This document shows, one piece after another, positions 11,701-18,515 of a stretch of DNA of 24,228 bases (the first letter of the stretch is position 1; the number at the start of each line of letters is the position of its first letter). Source of the DNA: a virus; the IMG/VR virus record IMGVR_UViG_3300038457_000077, positions 1 through 24,228 of that record, one strand, 5' to 3'. The notes under the pieces were generated by a model. The model did not search any database. It had not been told where the DNA came from and saw only the letters and a list, made by a program, of their open reading frames with translations. The position numbers and the translations under genes are program-made.

Positions 11701-11927
11701 TGGCTAAACCGAAGATCACACGCGATGGAAAGACCTACTACACGGTCGGTGCTACCGCCAAACTTCTCCGAACTAATACCATGAAGATAAAGCAGCTAAT
11801 GGGCGATGGTAGTTTGGACTGGTCGAATTTGCGCACGAATGGTCCGTTGTATATCAGCGAAGCAAGTGTTTTATCTTACCAACGGAAGCAGGTGGAGATT
11901 AAGCGCGCACAATTCGAGCGGCCATGA
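11700..11927 (+). CDS. Small helix-turn-helix DNA-binding protein (excisionase-like), 75 aa
   Basis: ATG at 11700 with AAGGGG about 9 nt upstream is preferred over the frame opening at 11574. The protein starts [20 protein letters not shown] and has the short winged-helix pattern of excisionase or MerR-like proteins: [20 protein letters not shown], a turn with a hydrophobic LDWS, then [16 protein letters not shown]. It precedes the adenine methyltransferase by 10 bp and may regulate it. No integrase is in the window to support an excisionase role. Confidence 0.68.
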
Positions 11928-11937
11928 CGGGGGGTCG

Positions 11938-13551
11938 ATGAACGCGCTCTACTACGGCGACAATCTCGCGGTGCTGCGTGAGAGCATCGCGGACGAAAGC
12001 GTTGATTTGGTCTATCTCGATCCGCCTTTTAATTCGAGTGCTACCTACAACGTACTTTTCAAAGCGCCATCGGGAGAAGGTTCACAAGCGCAGATCGAGG
12101 CATTCGAGGATACTTGGCACTGGAACGAGTCTGCCGAGCGCGCCTTTGATGAAGTTATAACCGGGCCACATTCCGACGCCTCGATCATGCTCAAGGCTAT
12201 GCGCTCGGCGCTCGGCGAAAATGACATGATGGCGTATCTCGCCATGATGGCCGTCCGGCTGATTGAATTGCATCGCGTGTTGAAGCCGACAGGCTCACTT
12301 TACCTGCACTGTGACCCGACAGCGAGCCATTACCTCAAAACTTTACTCGATAGCATATTTGACCCCATCAACTTTCGGAATGAAATTGTATGGAAGCGTC
12401 GTTACGGAAGTTTCAGTACCGTCCATGAGTCGCGCAAATTCGGCGCGGTGACAGATAGCATCCTCTTTTATGTCAAGAGCGATAATGCCGGATTTCATCC
12501 TCAGTACAGTTTTGCCGATCCAGAATATTTGGCTTACGTCGAAAGAACATTCAAACATTTCGACGAACAAGGGCGGCGTTATAGAATTGCAGACCTTGCA
12601 AATCCAGCCCCGCGACCAAATCTGATGTACGAATATAAGGGCTATAAGCCGCCAGCGAATGGGTGGGCCATTTCCTTAGAGAAAATGAAACAATGGGACA
12701 AGGAAGGGCGGCTACATTTTCCCAAAAGCAAGACCGGACGTATTCAGCGACGGCGTTTTTTCGATGAACTTAAAGGCAAGCCCGTTCAAAGTCTTTGGGA
12801 TGATATTGACATGCTTTCGTCTCAAGATCAGGAGCGGCTTGGGTATCCAACTCAGAAACCACTCGCACTTTTAGAACGTATCGTCGCCGCGTCATCGAAT
12901 GAGGGCGACGTTGTACTTGATCCGTTTTGCGGTTGCGGAACTACGATCCATGCAGCGCAAAAACTCAATCGCCATTGGATCGGCATTGACGTAACGCACC
13001 TTGCGATTGCTCTAGTAGAGCGCCGACTTAAAGAAGCCTTCCCCGGTATCACATATGAAGTGCATGGCGTTCCGAAAGACGTTGCTGGCGCTCGCAATCT
13101 TGCAGAGCGTGACAAGCATGAATTTCAAAAGTGGATCACCGCGACCATCGGCGCGCAACCCTACAAGGGCGGCAAGAAAGGAATGGATCGCGGCATTGAT
13201 GGCTATCTGCATTTCCGCGACGCCGATAACAAACCGCAGTTCGCCATCGTCTCAGTGAAGGGCGGCGAGAATATCACGTCTGGAATGGTGCGCGATCTTA
13301 AGGGCACGATGAACCGCGAGAAAGCTGCGCTTGGCCTATTCCTGACCCTTAATGAGCCGACACGCGAAATGGCGAAGGAAGCGAGCGCGGCGGGCTTCTA
13401 TGAAACCGGCGGCAAGAAATTTCCGCGCTTGCAAATTCTCACAGCGGCGCAAATTCTCGACAACCGACGCCCTCAAGTTCCGTTCGGGTTCACCGAAGGG
13501 TTTAAAAAAGCGGAGCGCGAAAAGTCAGGCGGACAGGGCGAATTGCTTTAA
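11938..13551 (+). CDS. N6-adenine-type DNA methyltransferase fused to Mrr-like nuclease domain
   Basis: A 537-residue two-domain protein. The N-terminal methyltransferase has the catalytic motif DPPF at 28-31 ([17 protein letters not shown]) and the S-adenosylmethionine motif at 328-336 (DPFCGCGTT), the motif order of the beta class that includes CcrM and type III Mod enzymes. From about residue 390 a second domain follows: [28 protein letters not shown] with D421, AIVSVKGG with K441, then [21 protein letters not shown]. This is the pattern of Mrr-type restriction endonuclease folds fused to methyltransferases, though the usual QVK is SVK here. The longer frame from 11806 is rejected since it overlaps the helix-turn-helix gene. 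It may be a single-chain restriction-modification enzyme; the sequence specificity cannot be read. Confidence 0.88.
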
Positions 13552-15355: not shown

Positions 15356-15928
15356 ATGTCAGGCAAGCCAGGAACGACGGGGGGGCCACGTCCGGGTTCG
15401 GGACGCCCGCCGGGAGCTAAGAACCGGGCGACGCTCGAACGCGAAGCCGAAGCCGCGCGCGCGATGGCAGCTGCGGCGGCGCTCGAAGACCCGAAGGTTC
15501 AAGAGGCCATCGCCGCCGTCTCTGACCCAGAGATTGTCGCGCAGGCTCAGGCCGCTGGGCGCCGAACCGGCAAGTCGATCCTGGACGACTTCGCGAACGT
15601 ATTTGCCGAGATTGCCGCGTATTACCAGCCGCGCCCGGACGGCACGAACGCGAACGCCGACGAGAAGAAGTTTCTGGCCTATTCCGGGATGGCGATTATC
15701 GCGGCCGACAAGGTTTCGCAGTATCAAACACCGAAGCTTTCGGCGGTCATGGTCGGGATGGCGCAAGTCCGGACTATCCAGGTCGACGGCGGGCTGCCTA
15801 GCCCGGTCCGCCCGTCCCCGCCGATGATCGAAGCCAAGCCCGACCCGCAAGCCCAGGGCGCGCCCGAGAAGCCCGCCGCGGGGGGTCCGGCGCCAGTTCC
15901 CGTGCCGTTCTCCGAGGCGGCGGAATGA
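15356..15928 (+). CDS. Probable terminase small subunit, 190 aa
   Basis: The gene lies directly before the large terminase and overlaps it by 4 nt (ATGA), the standard place for the small subunit, which recognises phage DNA for packaging. The N-terminus KPGTTGGPRPGSGRPPGAKN is a glycine/arginine/proline-rich leader common in small terminases and related phage DNA-binding proteins. A long helical region follows (ATLEREAEAARAMAAAAALE), then GKSILDDFANVFAEIAAYYQ and a proline-rich tail after residue 145. No obvious helix-turn-helix was found, so the call rests on position and leader. Confidence 0.65.
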   Translation: MSGKPGTTGGPRPGSGRPPGAKNRATLEREAEAARAMAAAAALEDPKVQEAIAAVSDPEIVAQAQAAGRRTGKSILDDFANVFAEIAAYYQPRPDGTNANADEKKFLAYSGMAIIAADKVSQYQTPKLSAVMVGMAQVRTIQVDGGLPSPVRPSPPMIEAKPDPQAQGAPEKPAAGGPAPVPVPFSEAAE

Positions 15929-17308
15929 ACGCCGAGTTCGCGTCTCCCGTCGACGACCAGGGCGTCCTGCGGATCAGGCTCCCGACGCTCCACCCGGACC
16001 AGGTCAACGCGTTCTGGGCGGCCCAGGACCGCCGGTTCTTCGCGCTCCGCTGCGGGCGGCGCTGGGGCAAGACCGACTTCGACATAACGCTCGGCTGCGA
16101 CGAAGCGATCAAGGGCGGCGAGGTCGGATGGTTCGCGCCCGAGAACAAGCGCCTGATCGAGGCCTACAACCAGATCGTCGAGCTGCTAGAACCGGTCAAG
16201 AAGTCGTCGTCGAAGACGGAAGGCATCATCCGGACGATCACCGGGGGCCGAATAGACTTCTGGTCGCTCGAGGACGAGGACGCGGGGCGGTCGCGCAAGT
16301 ACCGCCTTGTGATCATCGACGAGGGGGCGTTCACGAAGCCGACGATGGTCGACACCTGGAACAAGGCGATCAAGCCGACGCTGCTCGACTACGGCGGGCG
16401 GGCCATCGTGTCGTCGAACACGAACGGGATCGACGCCGACAACTTCCTCTACCAGATATGCCACGACCCGCTGCTCGGCTTCAGCCTGCCCGGGGAGCGG
16501 CCCCCGTTCGGCTTCCACGCGCCGAGCTACAACAACCCGCACGTTCCGAAGCGCGACAAGTTCGAGTCCGAAGAAGACTACGCGGTCCGGCGCGCGGCCG
16601 ACTACGCGAAGCTGATCGCCGACACGCCGCCGCTGGTCTACCAGCAGGAATACCTCGCCGAGTTCGTCGACTGGTCGGGGGCGTCGTTCTTCACCCGGGA
16701 TAGCTTGCTCGTGAACGGCCAGCCGGTCGAGTTCCCGGTTCGCTGCGAAGCGGTGTTCGCGGTCATCGACAGCGCGACCAAGACCGGGACGAAGAACGAC
16801 GGGACCGGCGTCGTCTATTACGCGATGACGAGGGACGTCGTCAGGCCGCTCACGATCCTCGACTGGGACCTCCAGCAGATCGAGGGCGACCTGCTGATTA
16901 CCTGGCTGCCGACGGTGTTCCAGAACCTCGAACACCTGGCGAAGGCCTGCCGCGCGCGCATGGGCTCGGTCGGCGCGCTGATCGAGGACAAGGCGTCCGG
17001 GATGATCCTGCTCCAACAGGCGATGCGGCGCGGTATGAAGGCGAGCGCGATCGACAGCAAGCTCACCAGCGTTGGCAAGGACGAGCGGGCGATTTCGGTT
17101 TCAGGCTACGTCTACCAGGGCAAGGTCAAGATCGCCCGGCTTGCCTACGAGAAGGTGAGCACTTACAAATCTACGTCCAGAAACCACCTTTTAGGGGAAG
17201 TCGTCGGCTTCCGGATCGGCGACAAATCGCCGGGCCGGCCCGACGACTTACTTTGACTGCTTCACTTATGGTATCGCTATAGCCCTGGGAAACAGCGAAG
17301 GCTTCTGA
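15925..17308 (+). CDS. terL: Terminase large subunit, probable +1 frameshift near the C-terminus
   Basis: ATP-driven packaging motor and nuclease that fills and cuts concatemeric DNA. Walker A is GRRWGKT (44-50), Walker B LVIIDEGAF (from 128), and the nuclease domain starts with VFAVIDSATKTGTK (D282) and LIEDKASGM. The open frame ends after residue 443 at ...GRPDDLL-TGA (17254-17256). Shifting +1 at CTT-TGA-C gives 17 more residues (DCFTYGIAIALGNSEGF), restoring the DDxxD ending expected of TerL nucleases, and stops at TGA 17306-17308, which overlaps the next ATG. CTTTGAC is the release factor 2 frameshift heptamer, although no Shine-Dalgarno-like stimulator is evident. The frame may instead be broken. 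Base composition drops in the last 100 bp. Confidence 0.9.
17251..17257 (+). promoter_or_regulatory. Candidate +1 frameshift site CTTTGAC in terL
   Basis: The zero-frame codons are TTA CTT TGA C. Slippage of the leucine tRNA from CTT to TTT moves the ribosome to GAC and continues terL for 17 residues. The heptamer equals that of bacterial prfB. The AGGGGG that stimulates prfB is not present in the preceding 15 nt. Confidence 0.5.
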
Positions 17309-17982
17309 TGCGAGCCGATTATTACGTCTACGTCCTTTTCCGCCCCGACGGGTCGCCCTGCTACGTCGGGAAGGGCAGCGGGCAGCGATGGCTTCATCAC
17401 GAACGGAAGGGAAAGTGTTCGAACCACCGTCTTGCGGCGATCATCCGACGCGCTGGCGGCGAGCTGCCGAAGGTTAAGGTTCGGGAAGGGCTCACGAGCG
17501 CGGAGGCCTGCAAGGTCGAGGTCGCATTCATAGGCGCTATAGGTCGAGGTCGCGACGGACCCCTGGTCAACATGACGAACGGCGGGGAAGGTCTCGGCGG
17601 GATTCCGATGGCGGAAGATATAAAACGCAAAATCGCTAAATCGAACAGCGGTCGAAAGTTCACCGCTGAGCATCGGGAAAACATCAGCAGGGGGCGCAAA
17701 GAGATGTTCGCTAAACGGCGCGCGGCTGGTATACCGACCAAACTGTCGCCCGAGCATCGGGCAGCCATTGGTCGCGGGAACGTAGGTAAGACGATGTCGG
17801 TCGAATCGCGAACGAAGATGAGCGCGGCCAAGAAGGGGCGACCGTGCGGCCAAATCCAGCGCCAGCGGCTTGCCGAATACTCGCGAAATAAAACCCCAGC
17901 GCACCGTGCGAAACTTTCGGCTATGTGTCATGCTCGCAACACCGGCGTGGCGATCGCGCTGGGCAACGCAGAGGGGTTTTGA
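17270..17982 (+). repeat. Duplicated terL tail flanking the homing endonuclease
   Basis: Two 39-nt segments, 17270-17308 and 17944-17982, encode GIAIALGNSEGF-stop and GVAIALGNAEGF-stop. Ten of 12 residues match, yet only the Leu, Asn and stop codons are identical; nearly every other codon differs. The first belongs to the shifted terL frame, the second is fused to the end of the endonuclease. They look like homologous terL ends from two lineages, not a recent direct duplication. Confidence 0.8.
17308..17982 (+). CDS. GIY-YIG homing endonuclease inserted at the 3' end of terL
   Basis: A 224-residue free-standing homing endonuclease. The catalytic GIY-YIG module spans about 5-90: YYVYVL, then CYVGKG (18-23), R27 and E71 of the AEACKVEVAF segment. 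Three NUMOD3-like DNA-binding repeats follow, each with an [E/A]HR..[LI]S or similar core: FTAEHRENISRGRKEMF, LSPEHRAAIGRGN with MSVESRTKMSAAKKGRP, and KTPAHRAKLSAM. The last 12 residues (GVAIALGNAEGF) match a terminase tail, not an endonuclease, so the gene appears fused to leftover terL sequence. The ATG overlaps the shifted terL TGA (TGATG) with GAAGG upstream. Such genes spread by cutting endonuclease-free alleles. Confidence 0.9.
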   Translation: MRADYYVYVLFRPDGSPCYVGKGSGQRWLHHERKGKCSNHRLAAIIRRAGGELPKVKVREGLTSAEACKVEVAFIGAIGRGRDGPLVNMTNGGEGLGGIPMAEDIKRKIAKSNSGRKFTAEHRENISRGRKEMFAKRRAAGIPTKLSPEHRAAIGRGNVGKTMSVESRTKMSAAKKGRPCGQIQRQRLAEYSRNKTPAHRAKLSAMCHARNTGVAIALGNAEGF

Positions 17983-17984
17983 CC

Positions 17985-18353
17985 ATGTCGAACAACGGAA
18001 ACGGGGTGAACCTCGACGCGCCGCCGGACAACGCGCCGTCGCAGCCGATCTCGCCGGAAGCCGCGACGAGCGCCATCGAGCAGCAGCTCGACCCCGTCGT
18101 GCGCCAGGTCGTCGGCACCGTGATCCGCGGCCTGCTGGTCTCGGCCCCCGGCGTCCCGCCCCACCTCCTGCTCAACAGCATCGCGCGGCAGACCGGTTCG
18201 CTGCTCGCGGGCGCGATAACGGCGGACCTCGCGACCGTCCTGAGCATGCGGAAGGGGTTCAAGGACGCGTTCGGGAACGGGGTGGCGCGGGAGAAGGTCA
18301 CGCAGCCGCCCATCCCGAATGGGCCATCGATGACGGTCGTCCGCAAAGGCTGA
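17985..18353 (+). CDS. Protein of unknown function between terL and portal, 122 aa
   Basis: ATG at 17985, 2 bp after the endonuclease stop; the binding site (AGAGGGG) lies within the old terL tail, consistent with terL having been the direct upstream neighbour before the insertion. The N-terminus is polar and proline-rich (SNNGNGVNLDAPPDNAPSQP), the middle helical and moderately hydrophobic (VVRQVVGTVIRGLLVSAPGV, then GSLLAGAITADLATVLSM). No recognised domain. Confidence 0.75.
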   Translation: MSNNGNGVNLDAPPDNAPSQPISPEAATSAIEQQLDPVVRQVVGTVIRGLLVSAPGVPPHLLLNSIARQTGSLLAGAITADLATVLSMRKGFKDAFGNGVAREKVTQPPIPNGPSMTVVRKG

Positions 18354-18356
18354 CTG

Positions 18357-18515
18357 ATGCCGCGCGACGTCCGGGAAACCATCGACTTCCTGCGGCGCGA
18401 AGCCCACGTTGCCGGAAAGCCGGAACTCGCTAGGATGTTCACCGCGTCGCTGCTCCGCATCGACGAAGAGGCCGAAGCCGCCAGGCGCCCGCCGAAGAAG
18501 GACGAGAAGGCATGA
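18357..18515 (+). CDS. 52-residue charged small protein
   Basis: Starts 3 bp after the preceding stop and ends in an ATGA overlap with the portal gene, which fits a coupled operon gene. The sequence MPRDVRETIDFLRREAHVAG continues KPELARMFTASLLRIDEEAE with a basic tail (AARRPPKKDEKA); it is likely one helical hairpin. It is below typical ORF cut-offs. Codon use matches its neighbours. Function unknown. Confidence 0.7.
   Translation: MPRDVRETIDFLRREAHVAGKPELARMFTASLLRIDEEAEAARRPPKKDEKA

Follow-up and report, generated by a model that had tools for sequence, protein, structure and literature searches.

In the viral DNA analysed here (24,228 nucleotides, hereafter the window), the end of the terminase large subunit (TerL) is encoded twice, once at the 3′ end of terL and once at the end of the endonuclease ORF that follows it, which raises the question of which copy is native and how TerL is completed. 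The endonuclease ORF (17308–17982) ends in GVAIALGNAEGF and a stop, and 10 of these 12 residues are the same as in the upstream copy, GIAIALGNSEGF, whereas 10 of the 12 codons differ. An earlier note on this DNA had described both features correctly, but it had placed the upstream copy in the terL frame. This was not the case: terL stops at TGA 17254–17256, and the upstream copy, which ends at 17308, lies in the +1 frame and is reachable only via a +1 shift. The meaning of the find changes with this frameshift, which the note had missed. Our reading, to which we give a probability of roughly 0.8, is that a homing cassette lies in terL together with an imported 3′ end carrying a built-in +1 frameshift, and that the native tail was left stranded on the endonuclease.

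The two copies were compared with L001, a viral contig with an uninterrupted terL whose product is 96% identical to TerL of the window. As the earlier note had predicted for an uninterrupted relative, the tail and the next gene of L001 match the downstream copy. Identity between both sequences was about 97% through position 17154 and only 69% over 17155–17307, with a sharp break at 17155, the coordinate at which the note had the foreign tract begin. The claim that the end of terL is richer in A+T was also borne out, with a GC content of 0.54 over 17155–17307 vs 0.65 in the terL body, where no 150-bp window fell below 0.60. A terL-tail profile scored the downstream tail at 32.2 bits, the best reverse-strand score over all downstream regions being 14.2. 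Because L001 matches the downstream copy, and because identity falls and A+T rises over the tract, the upstream end is taken as imported and the downstream tail as native. A foreign C-terminus, an endonuclease, a stranded native C-terminus and an uninterrupted sister are thus present together, and arrival by homing with co-conversion is well supported by these sequence comparisons. From the scenario of the earlier note, homing with co-conversion and the fusion of the recipient's tail to the endonuclease were retained, while an imported recoded tail in frame with terL was replaced by one that needs a +1 frameshift. The donor of the tract was not found in the comparison with relatives; L002 was rejected as such, its identity to the window being 78% in the tract and thus not above the 78–87% of the body. 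The place that the endonuclease takes in the window, after the shifted tail and before the next gene, is filled in L002 by an ORF of 94 amino acids (2576–2860) with no Pfam match.

The endonuclease shares the GIY-YIG residues Y6, Y8, Y19, R27, E71 and N88 with its relatives, and a NUMOD3 domain scored just below the Pfam cut-off (19.9 vs 20.4 bits). Close relatives were not found in viral contigs, and only distant ones were recovered from the phage collection. Two of these, from Achromobacter phage Motura and Rhizobium phage RHph_X2_25, end without a terL tail, and the downstream tail was therefore rejected as a native part of the endonuclease family; its presence in all related endonucleases is what the earlier note had named as evidence against its model. 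An intron also seems unlikely, since a search of 16800–18400 for group I or other intron RNA in Rfam gave no match up to E 1 and the 0-frame stop ahead of the tail argues against splicing. The matches in Escherichia and Actinobacillus phages, where terL might have been split, were discarded, as each is a single annotated terL gene.

Table 1. Features of the terL region in the window and, in the last line, in L009.
Feature	Position	Strand	Remarks
terL, 0-frame part	15925–17256	+	443 aa, ends ...GRPDDLL, stop TGA 17254–17256; PHROG terminase large subunit 1.2e-23
terL 3′ end, taken as imported (co-converted)	17155–17307	+	Drop in identity to L001, lower GC
AGGGG, Shine-Dalgarno-like element, putative role	17193–17197	+	In all shifted lineages (GGGGG in L005)
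52-nt hairpin directly 5′ of the shift site	17198–17249	+	Outer stem 17198–17207 with 17240–17249; synonymous constraint over its codons
prfB-type +1 shift site CTT TGA C	17251–17257	+	Common to five terL lineages; motif as in prfB (PMC12421855)
terL tail in +1 frame, DCFTYGIAIALGNSEGF	17255–17308	+	17 codons plus stop; purifying selection in +1 frame
GIY-YIG homing endonuclease ORF	17308–17982	+	224 aa, ATG overlaps tail stop; PHROG homing endonuclease 8e-17
Stranded native terL tail, GVAIALGNAEGF	17944–17982	+	In frame with endonuclease, ends in its stop; matches uninterrupted L001; tail profile 32.2 bits
Next gene (MSNNGNG...)	17985–18353	+	Same post-terL gene in L001 and L002
HNH endonuclease, L009	2403–2933	–	Pfam HNH 1.4e-8; same terL site as the GIY-YIG ORF of the window; stop overlaps terL stop

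Across the shift site the window reads GAC GAC TTA CTT TGA C TGC TTC, that is, DDLL and, after a one-base slip, the 17 residues of DCFTYGIAIALGNSEGF up to a stop at 17306–17308 that overlaps the endonuclease ATG (TGATG). A pattern scan for GAYGAYYTNCTTTGACNNNTTY in viral contigs returned 45 stretches, 18 of them terL, from contigs of four other lineages: the L081 group (13 contigs), L082/L087/L107 (the contigs of L005–L007), L099 (the contig of L002) and L104. In all 18 the tail is open only in the +1 frame, which together with the window makes 19 sequences in five lineages; in about 80 distinct unshifted relatives the tail is in frame. A pattern scan of bacterial genome contigs, like that for GAYGAYYTNCTTTGACNNNTTY, gave 16 matches, all due to chance, so no host was identified. 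When viral contigs were scanned for the block preceding the site, 18 stretches were obtained, all of them these terL genes. Over the 17 post-shift codons of the five lineages, pN was 0.18 and pS 0.88, and of the 172 differences, 104 were at third codon positions when read in +1. TerL residues 253–459 align with terminase nuclease domains in an AlphaFold model (mean pLDDT 77.6), in which the last helix (441–454) begins where the shift occurs. Two residues past the 0-frame stop, D444 and Y448, are invariant in 24 relatives. According to this model, the unshifted product would retain the ATPase domain and would be without most of the last nuclease-domain helix. Since unslipped TerL ends before that helix, packaging would depend on the slip.

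The site itself, CTT TGA C with a continuation in +1, is that of prfB, the release factor 2 gene, in which the motif is AGGGGG-N3-CTTTGAC (PMC12421855). The gene is terL here, with the shift at its 3′ end, and no Shine-Dalgarno-like sequence was present in the window at the prfB spacing, three nucleotides before CTT; instead, AGGGG lies 53 nt upstream, across the hairpin. This distance to CTT is always 53 nt in the shifted lineages, and only one of 81 unshifted terL genes has GGGG at that position. In the 20 codons (60 nt) before the site, synonymous variability was 0.27, compared with 0.50 in 100 upstream codons (p 0.0016) and 0.61 in the tail (p 0.0007). Across the shifted lineages 98.4% of the hairpin cells are paired, and in each lineage the folding energy was within the lowest 0.3–4.7% of synonymous shuffles. 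The hairpin is in part a by-product of the protein motif, since codons for VV are complementary to those for DD, and a similar stem is present in L001, which is unshifted; covariation was not significant in the five sequences, too few to tell. Given the shared site, the purifying selection in the +1 frame, the synonymous constraint and the hairpin with AGGGG, terL very probably uses programmed +1 frameshifting, with the hairpin and AGGGG probably serving as stimulators of the slip. Among 125 Leu codons counted over four gene stretches, the window never uses TTA, but the imported tract has this codon twice (17191–17193 and 17248–17250).

The following series of events would account for this arrangement. 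The insertion, the foreign tract and the conserved +1 reading frame are shown by the sequences. The cassette entered terL at about codons 448/449 (TAC^GGC), the putative place of cleavage. Co-conversion would have brought about 150 bp of terL 3′ end from another phage, with the native tail left behind as the end of the endonuclease ORF, and the recoded gene end copied along with the cassette would keep the host gene functional. During translation, the ribosome would pause when the weak stop UGA C occupies the A site, and the P-site tRNA on CUU would slip to UUU so that GAC is read, which would add the last 17 residues as in prfB. AGGGG may serve as a Shine-Dalgarno stimulator that the hairpin brings near the site; alternatively, the hairpin may exert a pull on the mRNA as it reforms behind the ribosome. 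The carrier is probably made uncleavable by the recoding and the extra base, as proposed for T4 gene 60 (PMC5009743), and immunity of the carrier to its own endonuclease is plausible.

In order to follow the shift among relatives, a TerL tree was built without the tail. The shifted label required five gains or losses on this tree, all forced by well-supported branches, and three sister pairs differ in the shift (window/L001, L005/L009 and L104/L151). Because of these forced changes and differing sisters, movement of the shifted tail appears more likely than descent with losses. Of the five shifted lineages, one alone has the endonuclease, and what ties the shift to the endonuclease is therefore the common site together with the stranded tails.

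Several other explanations have to be weighed against this reading. If the extra T were a sequencing error or a dead base, TerL would end at L443 and the tail would be unmade; a single base does separate the two frames, and the support for a +1 product comes from sequence. Nevertheless, error or decay was rejected on conservation, as the base stands at the same position in all 19 sequences of the five lineages, pN is far below pS in the +1 frame, and the part that would be lost holds both invariant residues and most of the last nuclease-domain helix, all of which makes this explanation very improbable. The hairpin could also have been selected as DNA, for instance as a binding or nicking site of the endonuclease or as a recombination end, and not as an RNA stimulator. 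The palindrome adjoins a mobile insertion, and pairing in RNA is not proved by the weak covariation, but the constraint stops exactly at the shift site, and AGGGG and CTTTGAC occupy fixed positions, all these parts being known from prfB; we consider selection at the DNA level unlikely. Less probable still is a shifted tail that the ancestor of the clade already had and that was passed on vertically and lost repeatedly, with no movement of a cassette. Although one homologous block is found in all shifted lineages and the tree alone cannot separate gains from losses, such a history has to accommodate the five forced changes, the sharp edge of the foreign tract and the presence in L001 of the very tail found stranded in the window.

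A stronger contender, whose chances we place not far below even, is that the frameshift is primarily regulatory and unrelated to immunity, setting the ratio of nuclease-less to complete TerL or throttling the downstream gene via TGATG. It agrees with a predicted 0-frame product in which the ATPase domain is retained and most of the last nuclease-domain helix is missing, with a tail stop that overlaps or adjoins the next start in the window, L002 and L081, and with the persistence of the shift in lineages devoid of the endonuclease. However, the approximately 80 unshifted relatives manage without it, and the shift is confined to one tail block, located at the insertion site. Only tentatively, and with the odds leaning against it, do we propose a mobile frameshift cassette in the full sense: a homing element whose imported terminase end would carry a prfB-like +1 signal (AGGGG, a hairpin looping AGGGG to the site, CUU UGA C), whose extra base and recoding would confer immunity, and which would make the terminase nuclease dependent on host RF2 levels.

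The usual example of a link between translational recoding and homing has been T4 gene 60. There, recoding occurs beside a homing endonuclease gene, mobA, as a 50-nt bypass (PMC5009743, PMC3014915), and a likely bypassing has been mentioned for a Streptomyces phage terminase (PMC5009743). T4 mobA/gene 60 is the nearest precedent for such a link: in both cases a homing endonuclease lies in an essential phage gene beside a recoding signal through which the complete protein is still made and which is believed to guard against cleavage. In T4, however, the signal is a bypass in a split topoisomerase gene, whereas here it is a one-base slip at CTT TGA C in a recoded end that travels among several phage lineages. 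An imported C-terminus, an endonuclease and a stranded native tail are known together in fungal mitochondria, in Allomyces atp6 and in Glomus atp6, atp9, cox2 and nad3 (PMC3630166). The arrangement, which the earlier note had called unusual, is so in phages but has these fungal counterparts. As in the window, the fungal endonuclease ORFs lie near the 3′ end of an essential gene, with a foreign C-terminus in place of the native one, which is stranded downstream, and with conservation of the protein although the DNA differs; the imported fungal tails are described as in phase with the host gene, whereas that of the window, whose host gene is a phage terminase, lies in +1 behind a prfB-type site. 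Free-standing homing endonucleases are also known beside terminase genes at exchange boundaries (PMC10448857), but here the endonuclease lies inside the last terL codons and comes with a replacement tail. No report of a frameshifted terL of this kind was found in the openly licensed literature, and the combination is taken as a new variation on these systems. A selfish gene in a DNA-packaging gene would thereby link a mobile element to translational frameshifting at the release factor 2 signal. If true, this would be a case independent of T4, with another recoding mechanism and more than one transfer, and it would suggest that recoding signals evolve repeatedly in homing cassettes and preserve the function of the genes they hit. 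A phage gene would also join the users of the prfB shift site, here with a hairpin lying between this site and the Shine-Dalgarno-like element. terL genes of this kind will be annotated as truncated or broken.

The terL end has also received a second type of cassette. Identity between L005 and L009 is 97.6% as far as the end of terL and 99% after the site, with different inserts in between: in L005, the shifted tail and about 170 nt, and in L009, its own recoded tail, in frame, and a minus-strand HNH endonuclease, each followed by a stranded native tail. L150 retains a stranded tail and, in decayed form, part of the HNH insert, so that stranded tails lie downstream of terL in the window, L005, L009 and L150. 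Shorter remnants, each ending in a stop, were read in the L081 group (NNAKGF) and in L104 (ALGNAEGF), and these could instead be tandem copies of the tail. A possible stranded tail (GNWEGY and a stop) also lies some 388 nt past terL in L201, a distant TerL relative (51%), which suggests that such insertions occur in other parts of the family too. Immediately upstream of the packaging genes, at 11806–13551, the window encodes a fusion of a DNA methylase (Pfam N6_N4_Mtase, 6e-44) with an Mrr-type restriction domain (7.5e-7).
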